Of a DNA stretch of 64,000 nucleotides, positions 9,915 to 26,801 are shown in pieces. The translations under genes and the position numbers were made by a program. This DNA comes from Collinsella tanakaei (GTDB lineage Bacteria > Actinomycetota > Coriobacteriia > Coriobacteriales > Coriobacteriaceae). Numbering within the stretch: the stretch's first letter is position 1; every line of letters starts with the position of its first letter. Below the pieces are notes generated by a model, which saw nothing but the letters and a program-made list of their open reading frames with translations, searched no databases and was not told the origin of the DNA. The stretch is taken from positions 62,001 to 126,000 of the forward strand of contig NZ_JAUDCO010000001.1 in assembly GCF_030373545.1 (NCBI RefSeq), in the 5' to 3' direction.

Positions 9915-10089
9915 TCGGACGTTCATTCAGCGCCTTGCATCGTAGCACATGCGGCGTTGCGGCAGCTGAGGCATCGGGCACGCGAGACCCCTGCCGCCGC
10001 CCGATGTGAACAACGCCCGGCGCGCCTTCATATGCACCGGGCTCACACCGCTTGCCCGCCGGAAAAAGCATCAGGCCTCATTTCACGCC

Positions 10090-10122
10090 AAACGGGGCGC
10101 CCCGCCATGGAGCGCCCCGTTT
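10090..10122 (-). terminator. Terminator of cstA
   Basis: An 11-bp stem (AAACGGGGCGC at 10090-10100, complement at 10112-10122) lies 46 bases beyond the cstA stop. Stem ends are A/T rich on both sides, so it may act in both directions. Confidence 0.65.
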
Positions 10123-10168
10123 CATGCATGGAAGTATGTGCAAAGACGTCCGATGCTATCTCACGCAG

Positions 10169-12013
10169 CTACGCCTCGACGCTTGCGCGGTCGGCGGACG
10201 CCTCGGCAGCCTGCTCGCGCACGTGGGCGCGACCCATCTCGGTCCACTCGGGCTCCTCGTCGGGAAGCGAGCCGGCCTCCTTGGTGAAGAGCTCCTTCAG
10301 GCAGTTGTAGGCCACGATGACGCCGAGCACCATGAGCAGGATCGCAAAGACGAGCTGCAGGCCGGAGGTGGCGATGACCGCGGCGCCGGAAGCGGCAAGC
10401 GCGTTCACGCAGCCGATCGCGCTCTGCACGAGCGAGGTGAAGGTGCAGCACAGCAGGAAGGCGACAGGCACGTAAAGCATGAAGCCGCGGCGGCCGGTGC
10501 ACTTGCAGAAGACGGCGAGCGTGATCATGGTCATGCCGCCGAGCAGCTGATTGGAGGCGCCGAACAGCGGCCAGATGTTGCTATAACCACCGAATGCCAG
10601 CGCAAAGCCAAGAGCCAGCGTGAGCACCGTGGCGACCCAGGTGTTGGACGCGACCTTGGCGGCGCCGGTGAGCTCGGCCTGCTCGTCCTCGAGCGCGTCG
10701 TTGGTCCGGGCGAAGAACTCCTGGAACGAAAGGCGGCCGATGCGCGCAACGGCGTCGACCGAGGTGAGCGCAAGCGCCGACACGCACATGGTCATGAACA
10801 CGGTCGCAAGCGTCTGATCGACACCGAAGGCGGTCATGCCGCGGGCGATGCCCTGCGAGAAGATCGAGAACGGAGTGGCCGCGACGCCGTTGTTGAGCGC
10901 GCCGGTGCCGGCAGTGTTGAGGTCAGAGAACATGATGGCGGCGAACACGATGGCCAGCACGCCCACGAAGGACTCGACCACCATCGCACCATAACCCACG
11001 GGCAGCATGTCGGATTCCTTCTCGACCTGCTTGGAGGAGGTGTTGGTGGACACGAGGCTGTGGAAGCCGGACAGGGCGCCGCACGCGACGGACACGAACA
11101 GCAGCGGGAACACGAAGCTGCCGTTGGCGGCCATCTCGCCGAAGTCGACGACCATCGGCGCGGTCATCGTGGCCTGGCCGTTAGCACCGAGCACGAAGAT
11201 GCCCACCACGGCGCAAGCGATCATGACGAGCATCATGATGCTCGTGAGGTAATCGCGCGGCTGCTTGAGCGTCTGGATGGGCATGGCGGCCGCGAACAGC
11301 AGGTACACGGCGATGACGGCAAACCAGCCGAGCTTGGGCAGGTAGACCGGGAACTGCATGCCCACGGCGAACATGGCGACGAACAGCACCACGGCGAGCG
11401 CCAGCTCACGCACGCCGGACAGCTGGAAGCGGCGGTTGAGCCAACCGAAGGCGATGGCAACGAAGGTGAACAGGATGGAGATCGTGCCCGCCGTGCCGCC
11501 GGCATAGGACTTGGCGACGTCCACGGCACCCGCCGCGTCATAGGTCGCCTGGAACGTACCGGCAACCATGTCGACGAACGCCGCGATCACGATGATGGTG
11601 AACAGCCAGCTGAACAGCAGGAACAGGCGACGGCCCGTGCGGCCGATGTACTTCTCGATCAGCTGGGCGAGCGACTTACCGTTGTTCTTGACGCTCGCGT
11701 ACAGCGCGCCGAAATCGTGCACGGCACCGAAGAAGATGCCGCCCACGAGCACCCACAGAAGCACCGGCAGCCAGCCGAACATCATGGCCGCGATGGTGCC
11801 CGTCACCGGGCCCGCTCCGCAGATGGAGCTGAACTGGTGCGAGAACGCGGTAAAGCACGATGCGGGCGAGAAGTTCTTCCCGTCCTCCATGCGGCGCGCG
11901 GGCGTGACGGCATCGCGGTCGATGCCCCACTTGGCCGCCAGCCACCTACCGTAGCCCAGGTAGCCTGCGGCCAGCACGACCGCCGCTACGACGACAACGA
12001 CGATTCCGTTCAT
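10169..12013 (-). CDS. cstA: CstA-family carbon starvation transporter
   Basis: 614-residue polytopic inner-membrane protein of the CstA family, whose studied members import peptides or pyruvate when preferred carbon runs out. The family signatures are all seen: N-terminal GYLGYGRWL, FSHQFSSICGAGPVTG, FGAVHDFGALYAS, and SGFHSLVSTNTSSKQV in the middle. About 15 or more membrane helices are evident. The frame extends upstream to 12130, but the ATG at 12013 has an AAAGGA site and starts at the first helix. A clear promoter at 12249-12276 and a leader terminator at 12045-12084 precede it, suggesting attenuation. Confidence 0.93.
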   Translation of the reverse strand: MNGIVVVVVAAVVLAAGYLGYGRWLAAKWGIDRDAVTPARRMEDGKNFSPASCFTAFSHQFSSICGAGPVTGTIAAMMFGWLPVLLWVLVGGIFFGAVHDFGALYASVKNNGKSLAQLIEKYIGRTGRRLFLLFSWLFTIIVIAAFVDMVAGTFQATYDAAGAVDVAKSYAGGTAGTISILFTFVAIAFGWLNRRFQLSGVRELALAVVLFVAMFAVGMQFPVYLPKLGWFAVIAVYLLFAAAMPIQTLKQPRDYLTSIMMLVMIACAVVGIFVLGANGQATMTAPMVVDFGEMAANGSFVFPLLFVSVACGALSGFHSLVSTNTSSKQVEKESDMLPVGYGAMVVESFVGVLAIVFAAIMFSDLNTAGTGALNNGVAATPFSIFSQGIARGMTAFGVDQTLATVFMTMCVSALALTSVDAVARIGRLSFQEFFARTNDALEDEQAELTGAAKVASNTWVATVLTLALGFALAFGGYSNIWPLFGASNQLLGGMTMITLAVFCKCTGRRGFMLYVPVAFLLCCTFTSLVQSAIGCVNALAASGAAVIATSGLQLVFAILLMVLGVIVAYNCLKELFTKEAGSLPDEEPEWTEMGRAHVREQAAEASADRASVEA

Positions 12014-13461: not shown

Positions 13462-14145
13462 TTACTCCTGCGCGCCGTACTTCTCGTAATAGGCGTCGAT
13501 AGCGGCCTTGATCGCATCGTCGATCACGACGCGGCCCGCAACCTCACGGTTGTAGAGGTGCTCGGCGACCTCGGCCATGCTCACGATGGACGCGACGGGG
13601 AACCCGTACTTCTCCTGGATCTCGGCCTGCGCGGTGTGCACGCCGCCCTTGCCGACCTCCATGCGGTTGAGCGACACGATCAGGCCCTTGACCTCAACGT
13701 CGGCAGCCGCCTTGAGCTTGGGATAGGTCTCGTCGATCGACTTGCCCGAGGTGGTGACGTCCTCGACCATGACCACGCGGTCGCCGTCCTTGAGCTCATA
13801 GCCGAGCATACCGCCCTTGTCGGCGCCGTGGTCCTTGACCTCCTTGCGATCAGAGCAGTACTTGACCTCCTTGCCGTAGAGCTCGTGCAGGGCGATGGTG
13901 GTAACGACGGACAGGGGGATGCCCTTGTACGCAGGCCCGAAGACGACGTCGAAATCGAGGCCGAAGTTGTCGTGGATCGCGCGGGCGTAGTACTCGCCCA
14001 GACGCTTGAGCTGCTCGCCGGTAACGTAGGCGCCGGCGTTCATGTAGAACGGCGAGGTGCGCCCGCTCTTGAGCGTGAACTCTCCGAACTTGAGCACGTC
14101 GGACTCGACCATGAACTCGATGAATTCCCGCTTGTAGTCTTCCAT
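13462..14145 (-). CDS. pyrE: Orotate phosphoribosyltransferase
   Basis: 227-residue enzyme joining orotate and PRPP to make orotidine 5'-monophosphate in pyrimidine synthesis. The PRPP-binding motif VVMVEDVTTSGKS is near residues 117-129, the orotate region FTLKSGRTSPFY is near the N terminus, and FGPAYKGIPL is present. The ATG at 14145 has a GGAAGGA site; the longer frame to 14265 has no family match. It stands alone here, not beside other pyr genes. Confidence 0.95.
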   Translation of the reverse strand: MEDYKREFIEFMVESDVLKFGEFTLKSGRTSPFYMNAGAYVTGEQLKRLGEYYARAIHDNFGLDFDVVFGPAYKGIPLSVVTTIALHELYGKEVKYCSDRKEVKDHGADKGGMLGYELKDGDRVVMVEDVTTSGKSIDETYPKLKAAADVEVKGLIVSLNRMEVGKGGVHTAQAEIQEKYGFPVASIVSMAEVAEHLYNREVAGRVVIDDAIKAAIDAYYEKYGAQE

Positions 14146-14565
14146 ATCAGTCCTTCCAACCTCGACGCGCGAAGCCGTCGCGATTCCTATATGCGCACCG
14201 CTATCATACCAGCGACCAGTGCGCGGTGCGCACGGCGCACAGAAGCGATGCGGCGCGGTGAACAAATCCGCAGCACGTCGCGCGCGATAAGAAAATTCTT
14301 TCGATAGATGCCGGGAAAACAGGGGCGAAGCTCGGGTATACGAGCTGACTATTTACTACCTCTACGCAGGTATTTCCGTTTGGAAAAAAATTTTCTACGG
14401 TCGGCGAAAAACCCTTGCAAAACAGCTTCGCTTTCCTGCAGTATTAAGCTGTGTCGACGTCTTCTACCCGCAGCACGGGCGGGAGGCGCCCGAACCCTTA
14501 TCTGACATCGTCCGCAGGACGAAACAGGCTCCGCAGAGGGGGAGCCGCAAGGAAAGGAGTTTTTC
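14146..14565. other. Divergent pyrE/ilvD intergenic region
   Basis: 420 bases, including an AT-rich patch at 14280-14410, unlike the surrounding DNA and likely to hold the pyrE and ilvD promoters. TATTAA at 14440-14445 is a possible -10 for ilvD, but no well-spaced -35 was found. Small hairpins occur at about 14476-14493 (CGGGCG) and 14528-14544 (GGCTCC). No T-box, leader peptide rich in Ile/Val/Leu or terminator was recognised, and a 65-codon open frame at 14308 has no ribosome site. Confidence 0.4.
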
Positions 14566-16209
14566 GTGGAACGCGCAATCGACAAGCTTGAGCCCTTCCA
14601 GCGGGCAATCACCAAGGCGCACCTCGCCTCCACCGGCGTTGCCGTCGATTCTCTCGAGAATCCCGACAAGCCCCTGATCGCGATCGCCAACAGCTGGAAC
14701 GAGATGTGCCCCGGCCACGAGCCGCTGCGCCAGCTCGCGTCCGAGGTCAAGAAGGGCATCCTCGAGGCCGGTGGCGAGCCCATCGAGTTCAACACCATCG
14801 CCATCTGCGACGGCATCGCCCAGGGCCATGCCGGCATGCACTACAGCCTCCCGCACCGCGAGATCATCGCCGACTCCTGCGAGGCCCAGATCCTCGGCCT
14901 GAACGTCTTCGACGGCGTCGTCTACATGGCCAGCTGCGACAAGATCGTCCCGGCCATGCTCATGGCCGCCGGCCGTATCAACCTGCCCGGCGCCCTTGTG
15001 TCCGCCGGTCCCTGCTGGGACGAGATCAAGCCGAGCGACTCCAAGGCCCTGCGCGCGTCCTTCCTGCGCGGCGAGGCCACCGAGCTCGACGTCATCGAGG
15101 GCACGCTCAAGTACTACACCGGCCCTGGCATCTGCCCGTTCCTGGGTACCGCCAACACCATGTGCTGCCTGGCCGAGGGCCTGGGCATGATGGTCCCCGG
15201 CGGCGCGCTGCAGCCCGCCCCCACCGCCATGCGCCGCTTCCTGGCCCGCCGCACCGGCGCCGCCGTCGTCGACCTGGTCCGTAAGGGCATCAAGCCGAGC
15301 GACATCATGACCGAGGCCGCCTTCCAGAACGCCGTGACGCTGCTCGCCTCCATCGGCGGCTCGCTCAACGCCCTGCTGCACCTGCCGGCCATCGCCGCCG
15401 AGCTCGGTCTCGAGGTCACCTGGGCGCAGGTCGCCGAGACCACGAGCCGCGTGCCGCTGGTCACCAACATCACGCCCAATGGTGATATGTCCTGCATCAA
15501 CCTCTACAAGGCCGGCGGCGTGCCCGCGGTCCTCAAGACCATCGAGAAGGATCTCGACACCTCCGTCATGACCATCAACGGCAAGACGCTCGGCGAGAAC
15601 CTCGAGGCCGACATCAAGATCGACCGCTCCGTCATCCGCACGCAGGATGACCCCGCCTCCGTCGCCAACGGCATCCAGGTCCTCTACGGCAACCTCGCTC
15701 CCGAGGGCACGCTCGTCAAGACCTCCGCGGTGCCCGACGATCAGCACACCTTCGACGGCCCGGCCATGTGCTTCAACAGCGAGGAGGAGTGCTTCGCCGC
15801 CTACAACGCGCACAAGATCCCCGCTGGCACCGCAGTCATCATCCGCTACGAGGGCCCCAAGGGCGGCCCGGGCATGAAGGAGCTGCACCGCGTCACCGAG
15901 ATCATGAAGGGCATCCCGGGCTCCGCTGTCATCACCGACGGCCGCTTCTCCGGCGCCTCCGGCGGCCTGTCCGTCGGCTATCTGTGCCCCGAGGCTGCTG
16001 AGGGCGGCCCCATCGCGCTGATCCAGGACGGCGACATGGTCCACATCAACCTGGCCGACAACGCGATCTCCTTCGACATCACCGACGAGGAGCTCGAGGC
16101 GCGTCGCCAGAACTGGACTCCGGTCGTCCATGACTTCAAGGGCAAGGTCCTCGCGCGCTACCTCAAGGAGGTCGGCCCCGCCAAGGACGGCGCTCTGCTC
16201 GGCGCGTAA
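14566..16209 (+). CDS. ilvD: Dihydroxy-acid dehydratase
   Basis: 547-residue iron-sulfur enzyme of branched-chain amino-acid synthesis, converting 2,3-dihydroxy-isovalerate and -methylvalerate to the 2-keto acids. Family blocks are clear: NSWNEMCPGH, the cluster cysteine in ASCDKIVPAMLMA (usually PGMLMA), GICPFLGTANTMCCLAE and the C-terminal TDGRFSGASGG. Translation starts at GTG with an AAAGGAG site 6 bases upstream. It is a single-gene unit with its own terminator; ilvE lies about 15 kb further on. Confidence 0.95.
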   Translation: MERAIDKLEPFQRAITKAHLASTGVAVDSLENPDKPLIAIANSWNEMCPGHEPLRQLASEVKKGILEAGGEPIEFNTIAICDGIAQGHAGMHYSLPHREIIADSCEAQILGLNVFDGVVYMASCDKIVPAMLMAAGRINLPGALVSAGPCWDEIKPSDSKALRASFLRGEATELDVIEGTLKYYTGPGICPFLGTANTMCCLAEGLGMMVPGGALQPAPTAMRRFLARRTGAAVVDLVRKGIKPSDIMTEAAFQNAVTLLASIGGSLNALLHLPAIAAELGLEVTWAQVAETTSRVPLVTNITPNGDMSCINLYKAGGVPAVLKTIEKDLDTSVMTINGKTLGENLEADIKIDRSVIRTQDDPASVANGIQVLYGNLAPEGTLVKTSAVPDDQHTFDGPAMCFNSEEECFAAYNAHKIPAGTAVIIRYEGPKGGPGMKELHRVTEIMKGIPGSAVITDGRFSGASGGLSVGYLCPEAAEGGPIALIQDGDMVHINLADNAISFDITDEELEARRQNWTPVVHDFKGKVLARYLKEVGPAKDGALLGA

Positions 16210-16388: not shown

Positions 16389-16661
16389 TTACTCGCCGCA
16401 GCCGCTGTTGATGAGCTCGACGAGCGCCTTCACGGCCTCCTGCTCGTCCTCGCCGTCGGCGGCGATGCAGATCGTGGTGCCGCAGGCCAGGCCCTGGGTC
16501 ATCAGCGCGAGCATGCTCTTGGCATTCACGCCGTCGCCCTCAGCATCGGCCTTCTTGACGGTGACGTTGGACTTGAAACCGGAAGCCGTCTTGCAGAACA
16601 GCGACGCCGGGCGGGCGTGCAGACCGGTGGCGTTGACGATCGTGGTCTCCTCAGAATACAT
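16389..16661 (-). CDS. ptsH: HPr phosphocarrier protein of the PTS
   Basis: 90 residues. HPr passes phosphate from enzyme I to the EIIA domains of sugar PTS systems. The active-site block TGLHARPAS places the phosphorylated His at 15. The VNAKSMLALM block carries the regulatory serine (Ser49 here, Ser46 in shorter relatives). The ATG at 16661 has an AAGGAG site; the longer frame is not family-like. Enzyme I is not in this window. Its place at the 3' end of the PTS operon suggests shared or linked expression. Confidence 0.93.
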   Translation of the reverse strand: MYSEETTIVNATGLHARPASLFCKTASGFKSNVTVKKADAEGDGVNAKSMLALMTQGLACGTTICIAADGEDEQEAVKALVELINSGCGE

Positions 16662-16767
16662 GGGACGTTCTCCTTTTCTCCGCGAGCCGAAGGCTCGGTA
16701 TCCCGCGCAGGCGCATCGCGCCCGCACATGTTGATCCTACAGTTTACCGTACCACGGCGAAGGGTCG

Positions 16768-17856
16768 CTACACCATCTCGCGAACGGCCTCGTGCAGGCG
16801 CTGACGGTCAGCCGGGTCGTCGCTGTTGTAGTGGCGGGAGTTGACGATGTACTCCTCGATGGTGTTGAGGTTCTCCTCGGTGGGCTCGATGCCGAGCTCG
16901 CCCAGAGTCAGCGGAAGATCCATCTTGCGCATGAACTCGCGCAGCTCGTCCTCCTTGTCTTTCAGGCCGTTGAAGTACAGCTGGCAGAACAGGCCCACGG
17001 CGACGATCTCGCCGTGAATGGCCTCGGCGGCCTCGTGCGTGAAGTGCGTGCGCACGCCGTCGTAGATCACGTGGGCGAGCTCCGACTGACGGAAGCTCTT
17101 GGTGGTGTTGGCGATCACGCCGGTGGTGATCACGTTCAGGAAGGCCATGTCGGTGAGGTTCTTGGTGACCTCGCCGGCGCGGTTGTCCTCGATGGCGGGA
17201 AGCGCGATCTTCTCGAGCACATCGTAGACGTAGGCAGCCATGTTGAAAGCCGTGAAGACGTCGATCGGCGTATCCTCGAGATGCATCTCGGGCTGGCCGT
17301 TCAGCATCTCGATCTTCTTGGCCATGGCGTCCATGATGCCGGCGGCGTTGTAGCGGTGCGGGCAGGCGGCGATCACGTCGAGATCCATGTACACGCCGTC
17401 GATCTCGTGGTCAAAACGCCAGGAGCGCAGCTTGCCGCCCTCGGCGGTGTACATGACGCTCATGCAGGTGAACGGCGCGCAGGTGGATGCGGACGTGGGG
17501 ACGTTGATGGCGCCCAGATGCGCCACCTCGCCCACGGCCTTGGCAAGGTCGGTGATCTTGCCGCCGCCGACGCCGACGATCTCGTCGCAGCCGGCCTCGT
17601 GCGCCTTGGCGGCCAGCTCCTCGGCGCCCTCGTAGCAGCACCAGCCCGTCCAGATCTCAAGCTGCCACTCGACGCCCGCGGCCTCCATGCTCGGGACCAG
17701 ACGGTCCTTGACCGCGTCCCAGGAGCGCGGACCGGCGACGATCAGCATCTTGTTGCCGAAACGCTTGAGCTCATCGCCCATCTGCTCCAAAAGACCGCGC
17801 TCACAGCGCACGCGACCGGCGCCAAACTTGATCGCGGTATCCAGTTCCACTGCCAT
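16768..17856 (-). CDS. Iron-type alcohol/polyol dehydrogenase (GldA/AroB-like)
   Basis: 362-residue NAD(P)-dependent dehydrogenase. The dinucleotide site GVGGGKITDLAKA is near residues 95-107, with PTSASTCAPFT after it. Metal-site candidates are Asp in GIMDAMAKK and the histidines in SELAHVIYDG and EAIHGEIVAVG. Relatives oxidise glycerol or reduce hydroxy/keto acids (GldA, HcxA). In this operon the substrate is more likely a sugar-derived hydroxy compound than glycerol, but that is inference. The gap to the aldolase gene upstream is 115 bases, so it may have its own promoter. Confidence 0.85.
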   Translation of the reverse strand: MAVELDTAIKFGAGRVRCERGLLEQMGDELKRFGNKMLIVAGPRSWDAVKDRLVPSMEAAGVEWQLEIWTGWCCYEGAEELAAKAHEAGCDEIVGVGGGKITDLAKAVGEVAHLGAINVPTSASTCAPFTCMSVMYTAEGGKLRSWRFDHEIDGVYMDLDVIAACPHRYNAAGIMDAMAKKIEMLNGQPEMHLEDTPIDVFTAFNMAAYVYDVLEKIALPAIEDNRAGEVTKNLTDMAFLNVITTGVIANTTKSFRQSELAHVIYDGVRTHFTHEAAEAIHGEIVAVGLFCQLYFNGLKDKEDELREFMRKMDLPLTLGELGIEPTEENLNTIEEYIVNSRHYNSDDPADRQRLHEAVREMV

Positions 17857-17971
17857 AGTTCCCTCTTTCTCCCTTTTTCGATGCTCGTGAACAGGGTATC
17901 TTTCGACGCACGGCGGGCGCGATGCCCCTGCAGCCCACCGTGCGCCGGAAAGACCGTAACGGTCCGGCGGC

Positions 17972-18631
17972 TTAGCCGCGGATCTCGCGGACGGCAGCCG
18001 CGGCCTCGGCCGTCAGGGCCTCGACGCGCGAGAAGTCGCCGTCGGCGAACAGGTTGGGCTTGACCATCCAGGTGCCGCCCGCGGCGAGGATCGCCTTGGA
18101 TCCCAGGAAGTCACGCACGTTGTCGGGGCTCACGCCGCCGGTGGGCATGAAGCGGTGGCCGACGAACACGGCGGCAAGCGCCTCGATGGCCTTCAGGCCA
18201 CCGTAGAGGTTGGCGGGGAAGAACTTGGTGATATCGAAGCCCAGGTTGATGAGGGTCGTCAGCTCGGCGGGAGTCACGCCGCCGGGGATGAGGTTGATCT
18301 CATGCTCAAGGCACCAGTCGATGATGGCCATGTCGTAGCCCGGGGACACGATGAACTTCGCGCCCGCATCGACGGCCTTCTTGCACTGCTCGAGGTTCAC
18401 CACCGTACCGGCACCGACCAGGATGTCGGGGCACTTCTCGGCCATCTCGTGGATGCAGTCGGCGGCAGCCGCGGTGCGGAAGGTCACCTCAGCCGCGGGA
18501 AGCCCGCCGGCAACCAGCGCGCTGGCCATGGGGACGGCGTCCTCGACCTTCTCGAGCACGACGACCGGCACGACGCCCGTCTTCTCGACCTGCTCGTAGA
18601 AACCATTGTTCTTCATGTACTCAGTCGACAT
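17972..18631 (-). CDS. eda: KDPG/KHG-type aldolase
   Basis: 219-residue class I aldolase that splits 2-keto-3-deoxy-6-phosphogluconate (or a stereoisomer) into pyruvate and glyceraldehyde 3-phosphate, the last Entner-Doudoroff step. The Schiff-base Lys136 is in ITKFFPA. The catalytic Glu48 is in AEVTFRT; VGAGTV and MPTGGVS are also typical. A GAGAGGAAG site precedes the ATG. It lies just after the dehydratase genes, which would make its substrate. Confidence 0.92.
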   Translation of the reverse strand: MSTEYMKNNGFYEQVEKTGVVPVVVLEKVEDAVPMASALVAGGLPAAEVTFRTAAAADCIHEMAEKCPDILVGAGTVVNLEQCKKAVDAGAKFIVSPGYDMAIIDWCLEHEINLIPGGVTPAELTTLINLGFDITKFFPANLYGGLKAIEALAAVFVGHRFMPTGGVSPDNVRDFLGSKAILAAGGTWMVKPNLFADGDFSRVEALTAEAAAAVREIRG

Positions 18632-18699
18632 CTTGCTTCCTCTCTCTTGTCGAGCTTACTTCCCGTTATATGCACCACAGGGTCGGCGCAGGCCTGCGC

Positions 18700-19869
18700 T
18701 TACGGCAGGCAGGTGCACCACACCTCCTGATTGTGGTAGATGGCAAAATCGTCAAAGCCCAAACGCTCCGCAGCGGGCTGCTCGCCGTCGCATACGTGCT
18801 CGAGCAGCTCGAGCAGGCTCGACCCGAGCTCGTCGATCGTCTGCGTCCCCTCGATGACGCCGGAGGCGTCGAAATCCATATTGTCCGCCATGCGCGCATA
18901 GGTCTCAGCGTTGCCCGTGACCTTGATGACGGGGATGAGCGGGTTGCCGATCGGCGTGCCGCGGCCCGTCGTGAAGATAAGCACCTGCGCACCGCCTGCC
19001 GTCATGCCGGACACCGACTCGATGTCGTAGCCCGGCGTGTCCATAACGACCAGACCGGGCTTCGTCGGCACAGCGCCATAAGGGACGACCTCCGCGATCT
19101 GCGAGGTGCCGCCCTTCGAGATGCCGCCCAGCGCCTTTTCCTCGAGTGTGGACAGGCCGCCGGCCATATTGCCCGGCGACGGGTTGGCGCCGCGCACGTC
19201 CACGCCCGCCGCGGCGAAGCTCTTCTCGAGCCCATGCACGATACGGTAGACGTCGTCGGAAACCTCGGGCGTGGCCGCGCGGGCCGCGAGGATATCCTCG
19301 GTGCCGATGAGCTCGGTCGTCTCGCCGAGCATCACCGTGCCGCCGGCGGCGACGACCGCATCGCTCACCGCGCCGACCACCGGGTTGGCGGCAAGACCGC
19401 TCGTGGCGTCCGAGCCGCCGCAGTTGGTCCCCAAGACCAGGTCGTCCAGGCCCATCTCGCAGCGCTCGACAGCGGCAGCCTGTTCCACAAGGGCGCGCGC
19501 AAGCTCGACGCCGTGCGCGACCGCGCGCTCAGAGCCGCCGCAGTCCTGAATCGTCATCACCTCGAGGGGCTTTTTGCTCACCTCGCGGATGCGCTCGGCA
19601 AGCTCGTAGGGCTTGGTGGTCTCGCATCCCAGGCCCACGAGCAGGGTCGCGAACACGTTGGGATTGAGCGCCAGGTTCACAAGGCAGCGACGCATGATCT
19701 CGATGCCCGAACCCACCTGGCCGCATCCCTTGGCACAGGGGACCGCTACCGCTCCCGGCACCGCTGCGGCGATGCGGCGCGCAACGACGTTGGCGCACCC
19801 GCACGTCGAGAGCACGAGCACATGGTTGCGGATACCTATGCGACCATCCGGTCGACGATAGCCCCTCAT
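18700..19869 (-). CDS. UxaA/GarD-family dehydratase, large subunit
   Basis: 389 residues matching the main domain of altronate/galactarate dehydratases, starting at the typical GYRRPDGRIGIRNHVLVLST. Conserved GCG and CGGSD blocks (GTNCGGSDATSG), GNMAGGLSTLEEKALG and a late TTGRGTPIGNP are present. These iron-dependent lyases remove water from sugar acids to give 2-keto-3-deoxy acids. The ATG overlaps the stop of the small SAF-domain gene (ATGA), so the two are translationally coupled subunits. The exact sugar acid cannot be read, and related SuyB proteins act on sulfolactate. Confidence 0.9.
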   Translation of the reverse strand: MRGYRRPDGRIGIRNHVLVLSTCGCANVVARRIAAAVPGAVAVPCAKGCGQVGSGIEIMRRCLVNLALNPNVFATLLVGLGCETTKPYELAERIREVSKKPLEVMTIQDCGGSERAVAHGVELARALVEQAAAVERCEMGLDDLVLGTNCGGSDATSGLAANPVVGAVSDAVVAAGGTVMLGETTELIGTEDILAARAATPEVSDDVYRIVHGLEKSFAAAGVDVRGANPSPGNMAGGLSTLEEKALGGISKGGTSQIAEVVPYGAVPTKPGLVVMDTPGYDIESVSGMTAGGAQVLIFTTGRGTPIGNPLIPVIKVTGNAETYARMADNMDFDASGVIEGTQTIDELGSSLLELLEHVCDGEQPAAERLGFDDFAIYHNQEVWCTCLP

Positions 19870-20177
19870 GCGCTCACCCCCGTCTTGACGCTCTCGATGA
19901 CATGGACATGGACGTAGCCGCCACGGGCGACGTCAGCCGTCATGATGCCGATGACCTCGCCGTACTTATGCGCAAGCTGGCCTGTGGCAAGCGGCGCGAG
20001 GCAGATCTTGTGAAAGCGCGGGATGTCCTCGAGCGCGACGAGCTCGTCGACCGTATCGCCCGACTTCGTCCGCACCGACACGGTGTCGCCGGCGGCGACC
20101 GCATCGATGACGGTTGCGACGTCGTCGATCGGATCCATGATGAGCGCGCGCTTTGTCGAGGGGGCCTTGCTTTCCAT
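19866..20177 (-). CDS. UxaA-family dehydratase, small SAF-domain subunit
   Basis: 103 residues that match the N-terminal SAF domain of altronate/galactarate dehydratase, including IPRFHKICLAPL and a closing GGYVHVHVIES block. In E. coli UxaA this domain is fused to the large part; here it is a separate gene overlapping the large-subunit gene by 4 bases. The ATG at 20177 has a GGAG site very close and an AGGAGGG further up; the longer frame to 20312 overlaps the previous gene and is not supported. An ATG 13 codons later is an alternative. Confidence 0.85.
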   Translation of the reverse strand: MESKAPSTKRALIMDPIDDVATVIDAVAAGDTVSVRTKSGDTVDELVALEDIPRFHKICLAPLATGQLAHKYGEVIGIMTADVARGGYVHVHVIESVKTGVSA

Positions 20178-20182
20178 CGCTC

Positions 20183-20755
20183 CTAGCCCTCCTCTTTCCC
20201 TACCTGGGACAGCGGGTCCTTGAACTCGCCGAACCGGATATCCGGGAAGCGCTCGGCCACATGGTCGCGCACCCACGCATACGTCTCGCGCATGCGGGAG
20301 CTGCGGACCCACAGGCCGGAGAGCTGCAGCACGTAATACACCTTGTCCGACCCGCTGGCGTCCATCTGCGCCTGCATGTCGGGCGTAATCTCGTCAAACT
20401 GATCGGCCGCTTTGTAGCCCATGATCTCGAGCATGAGGTCGTTGTTGCTCGCCGCCTTGAGGTCGACGCTCAGCACCTGGCTCCACGGCAGCGAGATGAC
20501 GTCTTCGGGCTTGGTGAGGTCGGTCACCTCGTCGGCGGTGAACTCGAACAGGGGCCTGCGGTCGAGCAGCTTGCGCACGCAAAAGGCCGTGGCCACGACA
20601 AAGCACGCCGCGACGATGACCGCAAGAATCGGCCACACGATATTGCCGCCGCCCTGGGTGAAGCCGAGCGCGACGACGCACACGGCAATGACAACATACG
20701 ACAGGCAGATGGCGACCAGCCGCCGCGCGTCGTTATAGACAACGAGTCTGTCCAT
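20183..20755 (-). CDS. Two-helix membrane protein with PH-like cytosolic domain
   Basis: 190 residues. Helices at about 12-32 and 39-60 (GNIVWPILAVIVAACFVVATAF) are followed by a soluble domain of about 130 residues with alternating hydrophobic strands. The layout resembles STM3941-type proteins, but this is a weak comparison. It ends 5 bases before the dehydratase small subunit and overlaps its ribosome site, so it is in the same transcript. No catalytic or transport motif is visible. Confidence 0.7.
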   Translation of the reverse strand: MDRLVVYNDARRLVAICLSYVVIAVCVVALGFTQGGGNIVWPILAVIVAACFVVATAFCVRKLLDRRPLFEFTADEVTDLTKPEDVISLPWSQVLSVDLKAASNNDLMLEIMGYKAADQFDEITPDMQAQMDASGSDKVYYVLQLSGLWVRSSRMRETYAWVRDHVAERFPDIRFGEFKDPLSQVGKEEG

Positions 20756-20782
20756 GGGATAAACCTCGCAGAGATTCCAACG

Positions 20783-21499
20783 TTAGCGCAGGACTTCCAT
20801 GAAGCCCACGACATCGGCCAGGCTATCGAACGAGAGGACCGCTTCGCTGCGAATCTTCTCGCGATTACCCACGGGCTGGTCCAGAATCGGATAGCCCTCG
20901 GTGACCGAATCCATATTCGTCAGGTCGTCGAAGATGAACGCCGACGTGAAGCCGCCTGCGTTGGCGGCGCAGATGCCCGCATAGCTGTCCTCGAGCACGA
21001 GTGTGTTGGCGGGATCGGCTCCGATGAGCCCCGCCGCCTTGAGGAAGATCTCGGGGTCGGGCTTGCCGTTTTCCACCTGCGTTCCGTCCACGATATAGGG
21101 GAACGCATGGGTGAGGTATTCGGCCTCGAGATACTCGTCGATCAGCGAGCGGACCGACGAGCTGGCGAGCGCGTAGGGAATGTTGCGCTCCTGCAGGTAG
21201 CTCAACAGCTCCAGCAGGCCCTTCTTCTTGCCCACACGGCCGTTTTGCTCCATGCGCACGGCCGTCTTCTGCTTCTTGATGTACTCGCGCCAGGTGACGA
21301 CGTCCTTGTCCTCACCGAACGCGTGCTTGAGGTCGGCGACGACCTCGCGTTCGATCTTGCCGCAAAGGCTCATGTACAAAGCGGGGTTCATCTGGAAGCC
21401 GAATGCGCGCGCCGTGCGCAGATACGCGCGGTAGCACATGCGCTCGCTGTCGAAGATGAGGCCGTCCATGTCGAACAGCACAGCCTGAAACGGACCCAC
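20783..21499 (-). CDS. HAD-superfamily hydrolase (beta-phosphoglucomutase-like)
   Basis: 238 residues. The nucleophile motif FDMDGLIFD is at residues 8-16, motif II Ser in LASSSVRS, motif III Lys in GKPDPEIFLKAA and motif IV in VLEDSYAG. The cap is inserted after motif I (C1 type), as in sugar phosphatases and phosphoglucomutases. It probably hydrolyses or isomerises a sugar phosphate linked to the PTS pathway. Translation starts at GTG with an AAAGGAG site. A terminator lies between it and the dehydrogenase gene upstream, so it may start a second transcript. Confidence 0.88.
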   Translation of the reverse strand: MGPFQAVLFDMDGLIFDSERMCYRAYLRTARAFGFQMNPALYMSLCGKIEREVVADLKHAFGEDKDVVTWREYIKKQKTAVRMEQNGRVGKKKGLLELLSYLQERNIPYALASSSVRSLIDEYLEAEYLTHAFPYIVDGTQVENGKPDPEIFLKAAGLIGADPANTLVLEDSYAGICAANAGGFTSAFIFDDLTNMDSVTEGYPILDQPVGNREKIRSEAVLSFDSLADVVGFMEVLR

Positions 21500-21530
21500 G
21501 GGTGCTCCTTTGCGGTCGATATGTCCATAA

Positions 21531-21574
21531 GAAAGGCCCGCACCCTCCTGCGGGTGCCGAAGGAGTGCGGGCCT
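21531..21574 (-). terminator. Terminator after the 2-hydroxyacid dehydrogenase
   Basis: Stem AGGCCCGCAC (21534-21543) with its complement at 21565-21574, extended by TCC/GGA, and followed on the minus strand by TTTCTTAT. It splits the catabolic region into an upstream PTS part and a downstream dehydratase part. Confidence 0.8.
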
Positions 21575-21591
21575 GGGGGTGGAGCGAGCTG

Positions 21592-22584
21592 TTACGCCCG
21601 GATCTCGTTCACCGGCTCCTCGCCGGCGACGAAACGCTCAACGTCTCCCACACACTTCTCGCCCATGCCGCGCAGGCACTCCTCCGTGTAGGCGGAGATG
21701 TGCGGGCACACGAGAACCTTGGGATGGTTGAAGTAGGGGTCGTCGGCCGCAGGCGGCTCGTCGTGCATGACGTCGATTGCCAGGGCCTTGATGGTGCCGT
21801 CCGCAAGCGCATCGAGCATCGCGGGCTGATCGATAAGATCGGCACGCGCGTTGTTGACCACATAGACGCCCTTCTTCATCTTGGCGAAGCACTCGGCGTT
21901 CAGGATGTGGAACGACGTCGGGTTGAGGTCGGCGTTGAGGGTCAGGATGTCGCAGTTGGAAACCACGGTATCCAGATCGGTGTACTCGAAGTCGACGCCC
22001 TGGGCGCGCAGCTTGTCGGCCCAATCGTCGTGATGCACCGGGTCGCAGGCCAGAACCTTGAGGTCGTAGCCGCGAGCCAGGATCTCGACGACACGGGAAC
22101 CGATGTTGCCGCAGCCGATGATGCCGAGCGTCTTGCCCGACACGCCGTTGCCCACGAACTTGGCGCGCTCGGCCCAACGGCCCTCGTTGGCCGCCACGTG
22201 CGAGTCGCTCACCTGACGCATGGCGTCAAGCAGGATGGCGACAGCGCCCTCGGCCACCGCGTCGCGCTCGACGAGCGGCGAGACCGTGGTAAGGATGCAG
22301 CCGGTCGCGTTGCAGGCCTTGACGTCGACGTTGTTGTAGCCGATGCCGTGACGCGAAAGCAGCAGCAGGTCGGTCTTGTGCTCAAAGAACTCCGCATCGA
22401 AAAACGGCGTCACCGAGGAGATGATGATGTTGTAGTCCTTGAGGGACTCGGCGAGCTCGGCGCCGTGGGCATCGCCCGCAACGCGCACGCGCTCGACCGT
22501 GCCGATCTTCTCAAGGCGCTCCATCTGGTCGGGGAAGCGGGTTCCGAACGACGAGGAGTTCACGATAGCGATCTTGTATTCCAT
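21592..22584 (-). CDS. D-isomer-specific 2-hydroxyacid dehydrogenase
   Basis: 330-residue NAD(P)H enzyme interconverting 2-keto and D-2-hydroxy acids. The Rossmann motif GIIGCGNIGSRV is near residues 152-163. The catalytic Arg is in VVNNARADLID, the Glu in DVMHDEPP and the His in CPHISAYTEE. It is transcribed directly after the PTS genes, 46 bases from EIIB. A KguD-like role, reducing an imported 2-keto-6-phospho sugar acid to the phospho-aldonate, fits the operon but is inference. Confidence 0.9.
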   Translation of the reverse strand: MEYKIAIVNSSSFGTRFPDQMERLEKIGTVERVRVAGDAHGAELAESLKDYNIIISSVTPFFDAEFFEHKTDLLLLSRHGIGYNNVDVKACNATGCILTTVSPLVERDAVAEGAVAILLDAMRQVSDSHVAANEGRWAERAKFVGNGVSGKTLGIIGCGNIGSRVVEILARGYDLKVLACDPVHHDDWADKLRAQGVDFEYTDLDTVVSNCDILTLNADLNPTSFHILNAECFAKMKKGVYVVNNARADLIDQPAMLDALADGTIKALAIDVMHDEPPAADDPYFNHPKVLVCPHISAYTEECLRGMGEKCVGDVERFVAGEEPVNEIRA

Positions 22585-22630
22585 AGGTGGAACTACCCTA
22601 TCCCTTTCTGCGTGAACCGCGAAGGCTCAA

Positions 22631-23125
22631 CTACTTGCCGCACTTGGCGAGGGCGGCGGCCAGGCCGACGTTCTCGGAGGACGGAATCTTCTGGAAGTAG
22701 ACGGTGACGCCCGCGTCGCCGATGGCCTTGGCGATGTCGGCGTCGTCGTCGGTCAGACCGACGGACTCGATGACCTTGGTGGAGCCGGGCTTGATGGCGA
22801 TGCCGCCGACGTTGAGCTCCTTGATGGGCACGCCGCCGTCAACGGCGACCTTGGCGTAGGCCAGCGACTTGAAGATCAGGGCTACCTTGTCGTCGCCGAA
22901 CTGGTCCTCGTTCCAACGGTCGACAAGACCCTGGGCGGAGTAGACCTTGATCTTGAGGCCGCCGGTGGACTGGGTGGACTCGTAGATCTCCTTCATGAAC
23001 TCATCGTTGGCGGTGGCATCGTCGATGACATAGGCGGTGTTGGTGCCCTTGCCCTTGGTCCAGACCTGCATGACCTGGCCGTGGACCAGACGGTCGTCGA
23101 TGCGCGCGAGGGTGATCTCAGACAT
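22631..23125 (-). CDS. Mannose-family PTS EIIB
   Basis: 164-residue cytosolic subunit that passes phosphate from EIIA to the incoming sugar. The active-site block ARIDDRLVHGQVM places the phosphorylated His at 15. Length and fold match EIIB of the mannose/fructose/sorbose group. An AGGAG site precedes the ATG. A strong intrinsic terminator lies between this gene and EIIA, so its level may be below that of EIIA, D and C. Confidence 0.93.
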   Translation of the reverse strand: MSEITLARIDDRLVHGQVMQVWTKGKGTNTAYVIDDATANDEFMKEIYESTQSTGGLKIKVYSAQGLVDRWNEDQFGDDKVALIFKSLAYAKVAVDGGVPIKELNVGGIAIKPGSTKVIESVGLTDDDADIAKAIGDAGVTVYFQKIPSSENVGLAAALAKCGK

Positions 23126-23154
23126 GGTGTTACTCCTATCCCTAGAGGGTGACT

Positions 23155-23195
23155 AAAAAGGGGCACATATCTCCCCATTAAGAGATATGTACCCC
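23155..23195 (-). terminator. Terminator between PTS EIIA and EIIB genes
   Basis: Stem of 13 positions (23183-23195 with 23160-23172, one mismatch: AGATATGT-CCCC arms) and a 10-nt loop, followed on the minus strand by five T. It sits inside what should be a single PTS operon and could cause partial termination or protect the 3' end of the upstream mRNA. Confidence 0.85.
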
Positions 23196-23206
23196 GTTGC
23201 GGCGAA

Positions 23207-23614
23207 TTAGCCCTTGAGGTTGGCGCGATTGATGAGACGGGCACCCATCTTGCCGGCCTCGAGCGCGGTGTTGGCAAGCTCGTGGCCGTCCTCGGCGATC
23301 TCGAGCTGCTGGATCGTCTCGATCAGCATGGGCATGTTCACGCCCAGGATGACGTCGCAGTCGACCTTGGCGACGCAGGCGAGCGCCACGTTGGAGGGGC
23401 TGCCGCCCATGAGGTCGCACATGATGATGGTGTGCGCGCCCTCGGCGTCGTTCTTCTCGACGATCTCGAACGCCTTCTCGCGCAGGTCATCGACGGACTG
23501 GCCGGGCACGAGGCCCAGGGCGTCGACGTTCTCCTGCTCGCCCATGATCATCTCGGCGCTCTTCTTGAGCTCGATGCCGAACAGACCGTGGGTGATGATG
23601 AGGACCTTGTTCAT
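23207..23614 (-). CDS. Mannose-family PTS EIIA
   Basis: 135-residue cytosolic subunit that takes phosphate from HPr. The phosphorylated His9 is in IITHGLFG; the MCDLMGGSPSNVA block is typical of the EIIA-Man fold. An AAGGAG site precedes the ATG. Thirty bases after the EIID stop. Confidence 0.93.
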   Translation of the reverse strand: MNKVLIITHGLFGIELKKSAEMIMGEQENVDALGLVPGQSVDDLREKAFEIVEKNDAEGAHTIIMCDLMGGSPSNVALACVAKVDCDVILGVNMPMLIETIQQLEIAEDGHELANTALEAGKMGARLINRANLKG

Positions 23615-23643
23615 GCGTATCGCTCCTTACAGCTCAAATCCGA

Positions 23644-24573
23644 TTAGAGGATGCCGATGACCGCGAGCACGATCAGGATGACCGTGAAGCCGAGCATGGC
23701 CTGGGTGACCTTCATGCCCTTCTTCTGGAAGAAGAAGAACAGGGCCATAACGGCGATCAGGGGCAGGATGCCGGGGATGATGCCATCCAGGGTCTCCTGG
23801 AGCACGAAGGGCTTGCCGGACAGGTCGGCCTGGATCGGGGTGGTCAGCTTGACGTAGCTGGCCGCCATGGCGCCCATCATGAACAGACCGAGCACGCCGA
23901 GCGCGTCGATGATGGACTTGATGCGGCCGCCCTTCATGACCTCGAGCGCGGCGCGACGGCCCATGGTGTAGCCCATGCGGGTGAACAGGTAGCCGTAGAT
24001 GAAGGTCGCGGTGGCGAAGCACACGAACGGCATGACGGCACCGAGCGGGTTGCCCTCCTGGCACAGGCCCAGGAACAGCGAGATGCAGATGTACTGAACG
24101 GTACCGGAGTCGATGGAGTCGCCGACACCAGCCAGCGGGCCCATCAGGCCGATCTTGGTGTTCTGGATCATCGTGGCGTCAAGCGCCTCCTCGCCGGCGT
24201 TGAGCGCCTTGGCGCGCTCCTCCTCGAGCGAGACGGTGATGCCGGAGATGATGCCGCCGCCCCAGACAGCCTGGGTGTTGAAGAACTGCAGGTGGCGCTG
24301 AAGGGCCTCGGCCAGGAAGACCTTGTTCTTGTAGAGCTTCTTGAGCACGGGGATCAGGCCGAAGCAGAACGCGGGGGCGATCATGCGGTCGAAGGTGTGC
24401 GGGACCTCGTTGGCCCACCAGAAGCGGAACCACGTCTTGAGGATGTCCTTGTTGGTGATCTCGTCGGGCTTGTTGGCCTCACCGAGCATCAAACGGGGAT
24501 CGGCGTGAATCATGCCGTCTTCGTCTAGATAATCGTTGATATCCTGGGAAAGCTTCTCGACAGCTTCACTCAT
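23644..24573 (-). CDS. Mannose-family PTS EIID
   Basis: 309-residue membrane subunit. The family blocks are WGGGIISGITVSLEEERA, GLMGPLAGVGDSIDSGT, and C-terminal helices ending in a long hydrophobic stretch. With EIIC it forms the sugar channel. The amphipathic N terminus is cytosolic. GAAAGGAAGGG precedes the ATG. Confidence 0.95.
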   Translation of the reverse strand: MSEAVEKLSQDINDYLDEDGMIHADPRLMLGEANKPDEITNKDILKTWFRFWWANEVPHTFDRMIAPAFCFGLIPVLKKLYKNKVFLAEALQRHLQFFNTQAVWGGGIISGITVSLEEERAKALNAGEEALDATMIQNTKIGLMGPLAGVGDSIDSGTVQYICISLFLGLCQEGNPLGAVMPFVCFATATFIYGYLFTRMGYTMGRRAALEVMKGGRIKSIIDALGVLGLFMMGAMAASYVKLTTPIQADLSGKPFVLQETLDGIIPGILPLIAVMALFFFFQKKGMKVTQAMLGFTVILIVLAVIGIL

Positions 24574-24617
24574 CGTAAAATCCCTTCCTTTCTATGGATA
24601 GCAGGGCTCGGGCGCGA

Positions 24618-25379
24618 CTAGGCGTCGGCCTTCGTGGTGAACATGTTGTAGCAGAAGGCGATGATGACGCCGAAGACGGCCCAGGTGATCATCGTGATGC
24701 TCATGCCGGCCTGGGTGGTGAGCACGACCAGGAAGTAGGCCAGGAAGAAGAACACGAGCAGCTTGCGGGAGCCGATGACGTGCATGGTGATGGCGATACC
24801 GAGGGCGGCAAGACCACCGGAGACGACGTCGAGCGCGTGCAGCACGGGGCCGTCGCTGATCATGTTCATGAAGTCGGAGATGACCGGGGCGCCCAGGTAC
24901 AGGGCGATGGTGATGGTCGGGACGAACAGCGCGAAGCCGATGAGGGAGGGCACGAGGCCGATCCACAGCTGCAGGTTGCGGGTGTCAGCCTTGAGGGCGC
25001 AGGCGTCCATGCGGCTCACGCAGATCGTGTTCAGGAAGAAGCGGAGCTGGTAGAGGTAGCTGCCCATGAGACCGACAGGCACGGCGATGGCGACTGCGGC
25101 CTCGGGGTCCAGGTCACCGATGCAGGCGACGGACACGGCGATGGCGGAAGCCACCGCGGGCTCGGAGGGCATAGCGCCACCGGGGGCGACGACGCCCATG
25201 TAGATCAGCTGGATGGTCGCGGTGACGATCATGGCCTGGTGCATGTCGCCGAGGATCAGACCGACCCAGAAGCCCGCCATAAGCGGCGAGAAACGCATGG
25301 TGAGGGTTGCATAACCGAGTGCGCGCGATTCGATTGCCGCAACAAACAGGGCAATCAGCAATGCTTGCAATAGTGTCAT
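24618..25379 (-). CDS. Mannose-family PTS EIIC
   Basis: 253-residue polytopic membrane subunit that binds and carries the sugar. Typical blocks are GDMHQAMIVTATIQLIYMGVVAPGGAMPSEP-like text and the following GGLAALGIAITMHVIGSRK. It is the first gene of the PTS transcript, so the operon promoter must lie in 25380-25949. The substrate is unknown; mannose-family PTS members also carry sorbose, glucosaminate, N-acetylgalactosamine and keto-sugars. Confidence 0.95.
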   Translation of the reverse strand: MTLLQALLIALFVAAIESRALGYATLTMRFSPLMAGFWVGLILGDMHQAMIVTATIQLIYMGVVAPGGAMPSEPAVASAIAVSVACIGDLDPEAAVAIAVPVGLMGSYLYQLRFFLNTICVSRMDACALKADTRNLQLWIGLVPSLIGFALFVPTITIALYLGAPVISDFMNMISDGPVLHALDVVSGGLAALGIAITMHVIGSRKLLVFFFLAYFLVVLTTQAGMSITMITWAVFGVIIAFCYNMFTTKADA

Positions 25380-25949
25380 TATGCCTTTCCTTTCTCTCCT
25401 CTTTTCCGGAAGCGATGGAGTGCGTCCGCTCCATTTCCCCCTTCGCCTGGGCGCGGGCCCTCCACGCCAAGGCAGCCTTTGGGCACAGAGCCCCTATGAC
25501 GAAGATTCTATGTGTTTTTATAGTGTCTCGAAAGAAAAAATTTTCCTAATTGGTGAACGGTGTGTAAGTTATCGTCTGCCGAATTTAGTACACATACAGC
25601 GCCGAAATGTGATACCGCTTACATGCGAAGTCACCTTTAATAGTTTCTGCTGGTAGATATCTGTTCTGTGCGTACGGCAAAATGTACTTCATTTTGTAGG
25701 TTTTTATCTCGCGGTCGTTAGAATGATTTATTATCGCTCGCATTTTACCGTTCACGCTTCTCGCGGCACCGTCCCCGGTCGCTTGGCCGCGTCTTCGTAC
25801 TAGAAAATTATTTTTTTCTACTTCCGTTCGCGATATTTTTTCGTCCTGCGGTGCGGACGCCGCTATATTGAATACAAAGCGCGTCGCATCACGCTATATT
25901 CGCCGCGATGCGCCCTGTACCTGTCGCTCTACAATCCGGGAATCCCACG
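25380..25949. promoter_or_regulatory. AT-rich divergent control region of the PTS operon and rpiR-type gene
   Basis: 570 bases, much richer in A/T than the surroundings. Visible elements are GTGAACGGT at 25553-25561 and its exact inverse ACCGTTCAC at 25747-25755, a short palindrome CAAAATG-N5-CATTTTG at 25678-25696, and CGCTATATT twice at 25861-25869 and 25892-25900. TATAAA (25522-25517, minus) and TAGAAT (25510-25505, minus) are possible -10 boxes for the PTS genes, without convincing -35 elements. No sigma-54 -24/-12 element was found. The sites are candidate operators for the divergent RpiR protein. Confidence 0.5.
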
Positions 25950-26801
25950 ATGGCACGAAACACCGTTCTCCTTAAGATCAAGGCGCTCTCCCCCTCGCTT
26001 TCCACCAAGGAGCAGCGCATCGCCGACTTCATCCTCGACGACCCGCGCTTCGCCTCGCGCATGACCATCAACGAGATGGCCGCGCAGCTCGGCGTTGCGG
26101 ACTCGACGGTGTTCAAATTTACCAAGAAGCTCGGGTACCGCGGATTCCGCGATTTCCGCACCGATCTGCTTGCCGAGGAGTTCGACCCGCAGATCTCGAT
26201 CCACGAGAACGTGACCCCCGAGGACGACCCCCTCACGGTCGCCCACAAGATCATCCACTCGAGCGCCAAGTCGCTCAACGACACCCTGGCGCTGCTCAAG
26301 CGCGAGGATCTGGAGCTCGCGCTCGACTTTCTGCTCGGCAGCGCGCGCATTTCGTTTTACGGATGCGGCGAGTCGGGCGTCATTGCGATGGACGCCTACC
26401 AGAAGTTCCTGCGCTCGCCCATCCCCTGCCACGCCGTCATGGATTCGCACATGCAGCTCATGCAGGCCGCCATGCTCACGCCCGACGACTGCGCCGTCGT
26501 GATCACCCACACCGGCGCCACGCGCGAGATGTACGCGGTGGCCCAGCTGGCGCACAACGCCGGCGCGCGCGTCATCCTCATCACGAGCTACCCGTCGCAG
26601 AAGATCTCCGAGTTCGCGGACATCACGTTCGTCTCGACCTCCGACGAGACGCGCTACCGCCCCGAGTCCCTCTCCTGTCGCTACGCGCAGCTCGCCATCA
26701 TCGATTCGCTCTACACGGCCATGATGTTCCGCCTGAGCGACGGCGCCGAGTCGCTTCACAAGATCCGCGAGGCCATCGACCTCATCAAGGACGAAAACTA
26801 G
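25950..26801 (+). CDS. RpiR-family (HTH + SIS) transcriptional regulator
   Basis: 283 residues. The N-terminal RpiR helix-turn-helix (about residues 1-75, with TINEMAAQLGVADSTVFKFTKKLGYRG-type text) is joined to a sugar-isomerase (SIS) domain starting with ARISFYGCGESG and including VVITHTGATREM. SIS domains bind phosphosugars, so an intermediate of the neighbouring PTS pathway is a likely signal. It is transcribed away from the PTS operon. The start at ATG 25950 matches the family; an in-frame ATG at 25908 is possible. Confidence 0.9.
   Translation: MARNTVLLKIKALSPSLSTKEQRIADFILDDPRFASRMTINEMAAQLGVADSTVFKFTKKLGYRGFRDFRTDLLAEEFDPQISIHENVTPEDDPLTVAHKIIHSSAKSLNDTLALLKREDLELALDFLLGSARISFYGCGESGVIAMDAYQKFLRSPIPCHAVMDSHMQLMQAAMLTPDDCAVVITHTGATREMYAVAQLAHNAGARVILITSYPSQKISEFADITFVSTSDETRYRPESLSCRYAQLAIIDSLYTAMMFRLSDGAESLHKIREAIDLIKDEN

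Follow-up and report, generated by a model that had tools for sequence, protein, structure and literature searches.

A Candidate PTS-Fed, Fully Phosphorylated Entner–Doudoroff-Type Operon for Sugar Acids in Collinsella tanakaei

Introduction

The D-glucosaminate pathway of Salmonella (dga) combines a mannose-family phosphotransferase system (PTS) for the sugar acid, a pyridoxal phosphate (PLP)-dependent ammonia-lyase and an aldolase of the 2-keto-3-deoxy-6-phosphogluconate (KDPG) type. Here we describe a 12-gene operon in a stretch of 64,000 nucleotides (the window) from the 2.2-Mb genome of the gut bacterium Collinsella tanakaei (G000; contig NZ_JAUDCO010000001.1, positions 62,001 to 126,000), which probably encodes a PTS-fed, fully phosphorylated Entner–Doudoroff-type route for hexonic and/or keto-hexonic acids. 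Sugar-acid use influences which gut bacteria thrive.

In Pseudomonas, 2-ketogluconate is catabolized through KguD, 6-phosphogluconate and the Entner–Doudoroff pathway (PMC8313287; PMC6293094). Dehydratases of the UxaA/GarD superfamily act on D-altronate, galactarate, D-idonate, D-arabinonate and L-galactonate or L-fuconate, all of them unphosphorylated (PMC6336799; PMC12632266), as an earlier, sequence-only reading of this DNA had also held. The sulfolactate sulfo-lyase SuyAB is without the four iron cysteines (PMC6336799).

A PTS-Linked Clade of Split UxaA Dehydratases

The large subunit of the UxaA/GarD-type dehydratase in the operon (18700..19869, minus strand), a proposed 6-phosphohexonate dehydratase, matches Pfam PF20629 (314 bits) and PF04295 (138 bits) above cut-off, which places it in the UxaA/GarD superfamily. 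Among 84,980 species genomes scanned, the set on which coverage of the Firmicutes rests, 80 loci have relatives of this subunit; 26 of them, at about 55% identity or more, form the PTS-linked clade set and the remaining 54 the comparison set. In the large-subunit tree, every PTS-linked member belongs to a single clade (support 1.0). Thermoanaerobacter wiegelii Rt8.B1 was left out of the tree as its broken gene is too short; its large subunit (10001-11157 of the locus) matches as two separate pieces, suggesting a frameshift.

PTS EIIC or EIID genes lie within 9 kb in 23/26 clade loci and in 0/54 others (Fisher p 4e-17, a value that ignores the relatedness of the loci). The clade loci without a PTS are two contigs shorter than 3.6 kb (L043 and L046) and one cluster without EII genes (L033). 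A D-2-hydroxyacid dehydrogenase (2HADH) gene is near in 24/26 clade loci vs 1/54 others, and a KDPG/KDPGal (2-keto-3-deoxy-6-phosphogalactonate) aldolase gene in 20/26 vs 0/54. The PTS specificity of the UxaA clade extends across phyla, and three PTS families have been recruited within it: Man in Collinsella, some Olsenella-type genomes and Lactobacillus, Ula in other Olsenella-type genomes, and Gat in Olegusella, Enorma, Clostridium, Fonticella, Sporolactobacillus, Pelosinus, Thermoanaerobacter and Coprothermobacter. This repeated recruitment of unrelated PTS types to one dehydratase clade is the strongest argument for a substrate that arrives phosphorylated.

No homolog of the Escherichia coli kinases KdgK and DgoK (E < 1e-4) was found in 33 PTS-cluster loci or in the window. 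The barest cluster, that of Clostridium sartagoforme (L036), consists of a DgoA-type aldolase, Gat EIIA, EIIB and EIIC, and the N and C parts of UxaA; on its simplest reading, a hexonate would be converted to its 6-phosphate by the PTS, to 2-keto-3-deoxy-6-phosphohexonate by UxaA, and to pyruvate and glyceraldehyde 3-phosphate by the aldolase.

The exclusive PTS linkage of one clade, the absence of a kinase and an Eda-type aldolase (see below) argue for a phosphorylated UxaA substrate. The same findings back the sequence-only reading on two points, that PTS phosphorylation feeds a KDPG-type aldolase and that the dehydratase acts on a phosphorylated acid, the latter being in our judgment the better-supported possibility. 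The whole branch, found in Coriobacteriia, Clostridia, Bacilli, Negativicutes and Coprothermobacter, seems likely to dehydrate 6-phosphohexonates, for example D-altronate or D-idonate 6-phosphate. In the searchable literature, we found no altronate or idonate 6-phosphate dehydratase, no text joining altronate dehydratase, PTS, KDPG aldolase and RpiR, and no description of such a pathway.

Split UxaA genes are not unusual in themselves, because they also occur outside the PTS-linked clade; the non-PTS split genes closest to the clade adjoin genes for a 2-keto-3-deoxygluconate (KDG) permease and a dihydrodipicolinate synthase (DHDPS)-type aldolase. The second UxaA of the C. tanakaei genome is fused, falls outside the clade and lies beside genes for a short-chain dehydrogenase/reductase (SDR) and a DapA-type aldolase (G000:C2:1294-5407); these genes probably serve a uronate or hexonate by a non-phosphorylative route. 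C. tanakaei ET10 has another fused homolog of UxaA (L023, 19799 onwards; L123, 4165-5667), which shares 45% identity with the window large subunit and lies about 9 kb from the UxaA of its PTS cluster.

Six other Collinsella records (L022-L027) keep the gene order, and Olsenella-type genomes largely do so as well, so that the grouping of the operon is beyond chance. Within Collinsella the cluster is accessory, a large subunit of at least 78% identity being present in 7/45 genomes. Plasmid records contained no member of the UxaA clade, the best match having 51.5% identity. In Thermoanaerobacter thermocopriae (L042, 15398-21158), a second PTS, of the Man type, lies downstream of a Gat-type UxaA cluster; it is preceded by a 930-aa protein that reads like a LevR-type activator, and its EIIC is 54% identical to the window EIIC.

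Predicted Structure and Likely Substrate of the Dehydratase

The predicted structure of the large subunit (pLDDT 86.6) has GarD (6u7l) as its best Foldseek match (TM 0.75), and in the alignment all four iron-site cysteines (C25, C49, C82 and C150) are conserved. Residues specific to the clade are K47, T148-N149, G182, L214, E284, E382 and W384, of which K47 precedes the GCGQ motif and N149 stands where most other family members have Glu; K47 could bind the phosphate. The small subunit (19866..20177, minus strand), a SAF-type N-terminal domain encoded as a separate gene, has a weak match (32 bits) to the N-terminal region of GarD (TIGR03248) and no Pfam match. A SuyAB-like identity of the split enzyme was rejected, all four iron cysteines being present.

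As derived from their formulae, the known UxaA-family substrates share a 2S,3R arrangement. The configuration of 6-phosphogluconate is 2R,3S, and 2R is also what a D-2-hydroxyacid dehydrogenase would be expected to yield. Because an Edd-like enzyme or Gnd would already serve 6-phosphogluconate (see below) and the known family is 2S,3R, it is more likely that UxaA takes a (2S,3R) acid such as D-altronate 6-phosphate, which is also a KDPG precursor. D-altronate 6-phosphate is perhaps made from a 5-keto acid by the GldA-like iron-type dehydrogenase (FeADH; 16768..17856, minus strand), which resembles enzymes that act as reductases on the carbon adjacent to a CH2OH or CH2OP end. This putative 5-keto reductase matches Pfam PF00465 and PF13685, and NCBIfam GldA below cut-off (177 bits); it adjoins UxaA-clade genes in Coriobacteriia only.

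The aldolase (17972..18631, minus strand) is of the Eda type (KHG/KDPG; TIGR01182, 233 bits) and is the sole PF01081 match in the genome. The alignment indicates conserved equivalents of E. coli Eda E45, K133 and T161; in the Gat-cluster aldolases, T161 is replaced by Val, as in DgoA. We take T161 (Eda) vs V154 (DgoA) to be a marker of the stereochemical type of aldolase. On these residues, the acid that reaches the aldolase should be KDPG in the window pathway and KDPGal in the Gat versions.

Probable Production and Use of 6-Phosphogluconate

Glucose-6-phosphate dehydrogenase (G6PDH) was found in none of the 16 cluster-bearing genomes searched (0/16). Seven Olsenella-type genomes have exactly one Gnd each (NCBIfam, 639-641 bits), located inside the UxaA cluster wherever the neighborhood was read. 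As these genomes are without G6PDH, the usual route from glucose 6-phosphate cannot supply this Gnd, and 6-phosphogluconate, as an INTERMEDIATE, is probably a product made by the cluster.

The clusters without Gnd, those of Collinsella, Enorma and the Olegusella type, have an IlvD paralog instead, which lies within the operon in Enorma; the paralog is linked to the cluster in these three genera. In the window it is a convergent neighbor of the operon (14566..16209, plus strand), is the second PF00920 gene of the genome and is proposed to be a 6-phosphogluconate dehydratase. Its third cluster cysteine lies in GPGICPFLGTANT, which resembles APGTCTFYGTANT of Edd, unlike CPTCGSCSGMFTANS of dihydroxyacid dehydratase (DHAD). 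The likeness to Edd is that of a local motif, the score against the Edd profile (NCBIfam TIGR01196) being 282 bits, under the cut-off of 708. No gene in the genome scores as Edd above this cut-off. A role as the housekeeping DHAD was rejected, as the ilvD of the genome sits elsewhere, beside ilvA-like and ilvB-like genes. Gnd in Olsenella clusters and the Edd-like IlvD in Collinsella clusters suggest that 2HADH makes 6-phosphogluconate, which would be drained by Gnd or by the IlvD paralog. In Collinsella phocaeensis (L026, about 14082-15700; G018:C1:236881-238501), the paralog occurs in two overlapping pieces (92% identity) and looks frameshifted, through a broken gene or an assembly error.

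In other Olsenella genomes, an ortholog of the IlvD paralog belongs to a second cluster with a Gat PTS, 2HADH and aldolase; a DgoD-like dehydratase is present in one such cluster (L122) and not in another (L120). In a further locus (L037), DgoD is firmly identified, scoring 633 bits against the NCBIfam model for galactonate dehydratase. One plan of PTS, 2HADH and aldolase thus accommodates dehydratases from three families, UxaA, IlvD and DgoD.

Organization of the Operon and Its Regulation

The operon runs on the minus strand from 25379 to 16389, with intergenic gaps of 5-115 bp and a 4-bp overlap within the UxaA pair, in the order EIIC, EIID, EIIA, EIIB, 2HADH, HAD phosphatase, a 190-aa protein, UxaA small and large subunits, aldolase, FeADH and HPr. 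The PTS genes form a complete mannose-family set with phosphorylatable histidines in EIIA and EIIB. EIIC (24618..25379), the first gene, is of the AgaW/Sor type (NCBIfam NF040757, 89 bits, and TIGR00822, 77 bits, both below cut-off), and EIID (23644..24573) matches TIGR00828 below cut-off (163 bits). EIIA (23207..23614; PF03610, TIGR00824) has an ITHG histidine motif in its translation, and EIIB (22631..23125; mannose/sorbose family, PF03830, 137 bits) has a DDRLVHGQV motif. The extra HPr phosphocarrier (16389..16661; TIGR01003, 93 bits) is accompanied by two other HPr-family matches in the genome, and HPr genes also occur beside some Gat-type clusters.

2HADH (21592..22584; PF02826/PF00389), the proposed 2-keto-6-phosphohexonate reductase, retains the active-site Arg, Glu and His of its family in the alignment. 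Among solved structures, phosphoglycerate dehydrogenases are its best relatives; 9m0t, which is probably a 2-ketogluconate reductase, matches at 118 bits. Orthologs of 2HADH occur in nearly every Coriobacteriia cluster and in one Lactobacillus cluster. The HAD gene (20783..21499) encodes an HAD-IA (PGMB-like) phosphatase (PF13419; TIGR02009 below cut-off), in place of which Ula-type clusters have a Cof-type HAD. The 190-aa putative membrane protein (20183..20755), which has no Pfam match, is kept between HAD and the UxaA N-terminal gene in Man-type clusters only. Every gene named in the sequence-only reading was recovered at its place with the function given, by motif and profile matches; the genes for the 190-aa protein and the convergent IlvD/Edd-family protein had been overlooked.

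An RpiR-family regulator (25908..26801, plus strand, probable start 25950; NCBIfam PRK11337, 194 bits, below cut-off) is divergent from the operon here and in relatives. A 13-bp candidate operator, CGGYNGRCGAWAA (25569..25581, minus strand), defined by eye, lies upstream of EIIC; its second exact match (14398-14410) is upstream of the IlvD paralog. The window contains no further exact match, and both sites are kept exactly in C. tanakaei ET10. As the motif was chosen after seeing both sites, it offers a weak hint of co-regulation of EIIC and the IlvD paralog.

Proposed Pathway and Alternative Explanations

Gene content, the confinement of PTS linkage to one clade, the lack of kinases and the type of aldolase are what the analysis observed. 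The pathway that we propose would proceed as follows, with each substrate and the direction of each reaction being what we infer. The EII complex and the operon's own HPr would bring the acid in as its 6-phosphate, making a kinase unnecessary. The split UxaA would form KDPG from a 6-phosphohexonate, which most likely has the (2S,3R) configuration, as D-altronate 6-phosphate does, and FeADH would probably feed this branch by reducing a 5-keto-6-phosphoacid. 2HADH would reduce a 2-keto-6-phosphoacid to 6-phosphogluconate, which in Collinsella the Edd-like IlvD paralog would dehydrate to KDPG and in Olsenella Gnd would convert to ribulose 5-phosphate. The Eda-type aldolase would split KDPG into pyruvate and glyceraldehyde 3-phosphate, and RpiR would repress the unit until a phosphorylated acid binds.

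Several points weigh against this proposal. The HAD phosphatase, which occurs in two unrelated versions, could strip the phosphate; the 2S,3R rule is drawn from free acids and may fail for this clade; a single Edd-like motif is no proof that the IlvD paralog uses 6-phosphogluconate, its whole-length score being nearer to DHAD; and the association counts are uncorrected for relatedness.

The sequence-only reading had placed PTS, reductase, UxaA and aldolase in one linear order. The course from PTS to aldolase is supported, whereas the strict order is less so: the Gnd and Edd-like IlvD variants point to 6-phosphogluconate as a reductase product handled by those enzymes, no reductase lies near the PTS, UxaA and aldolase genes of C. 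sartagoforme, and known UxaA substrates are 2S,3R vs the 2R,3S of gluconate. A linear scheme is still a serious rival, albeit an unlikely one, in which the PTS imports 2-ketogluconate, 2HADH yields 6-phosphogluconate, and KDPG is formed from this by the split UxaA, acting as a non-homologous 6-phosphogluconate dehydratase. Its appeal lies in 2HADH being the most constant partner of the clade, in a Lactobacillus cluster made up of just Man PTS, UxaA and 2HADH, in a genome without Edd above cut-off, and in the precedent of Pseudomonas, where 2-ketogluconate 6-phosphate is reduced to 6-phosphogluconate (PMC8313287). However, UxaA would then be redundant with the IlvD paralog in Collinsella and Enorma and would take a 2R,3S acid in a family known to need 2S,3R acids, and the same clade occurs with a DgoA-type aldolase and no reductase in C. 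sartagoforme.

If HAD removed the phosphate, UxaA would act on the free acid and a KDG kinase encoded elsewhere in the genome would re-phosphorylate KDG before the aldolase. Such a route would waste phosphoenolpyruvate (PEP) and ATP, no cluster contains the kinase, no HAD was seen in the clusters of C. sartagoforme, Fonticella and Coprothermobacter, and the other UxaA of the genome is paired with a DapA-type aldolase. It is therefore improbable, even though most Coriobacteriia clusters have an HAD phosphatase, of two unrelated types, and a single distant match to KdgK, of the PfkB type (29% identity), is encoded in the genome. It is very improbable that the imported acid is a pentonate, for example D-arabinonate, which enzymes of the UxaA family are known to use (PMC6336799), with UxaA acting on the 5-phosphate, the aldolase releasing pyruvate and glycolaldehyde phosphate, and HAD and FeADH forming ethylene glycol. 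FeADH does match the models for GldA and for a glycolaldehyde reductase, in each case under the cut-off, but Gnd in Olsenella clusters implies a six-carbon acid and the aldolase conserves the Eda residues.

If the phosphorylated hexonate pathway is correct, it would contain the first phosphorylated-substrate branch of the UxaA/GarD family. This branch would be central to a previously undescribed PTS-fed route for sugar acids, one in which IlvD, DgoD, Gnd and three PTS families can be freely combined. In a set of gut anaerobes, database labels such as altronate/galactarate dehydratase would then be wrong about both the substrate and the pathway. The purpose of the sole 6-phosphogluconate dehydrogenase in Olsenella-type genomes without G6PDH would also be explained.

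Comparison With Known Systems

The window enzyme shares the GarD (6u7l) fold, both Pfam domains and the four cysteines with the altronate, galactarate, D-idonate and D-arabinonate dehydratases of the UxaA/GarD superfamily. Split genes are also known in non-PTS members, whereas PTS linkage and its own conserved residues are found only in this clade. SuyAB resembles the window enzyme in its split UxaA-type subunits, but not in its iron cysteines. The D-glucosaminate pathway of Salmonella is alike in its mannose-family PTS and KDPG-type aldolase, whereas the genes described here encode dehydratases of the UxaA and IlvD types along with two dehydrogenases. The 2-ketogluconate route of Pseudomonas resembles the operon in the proposed reduction of 2-keto-6-phosphogluconate followed by KDPG aldolase; Pseudomonas uses a permease and a kinase together with Edd, whereas the clusters described here have a PTS, an IlvD paralog or Gnd, and an extra UxaA branch.

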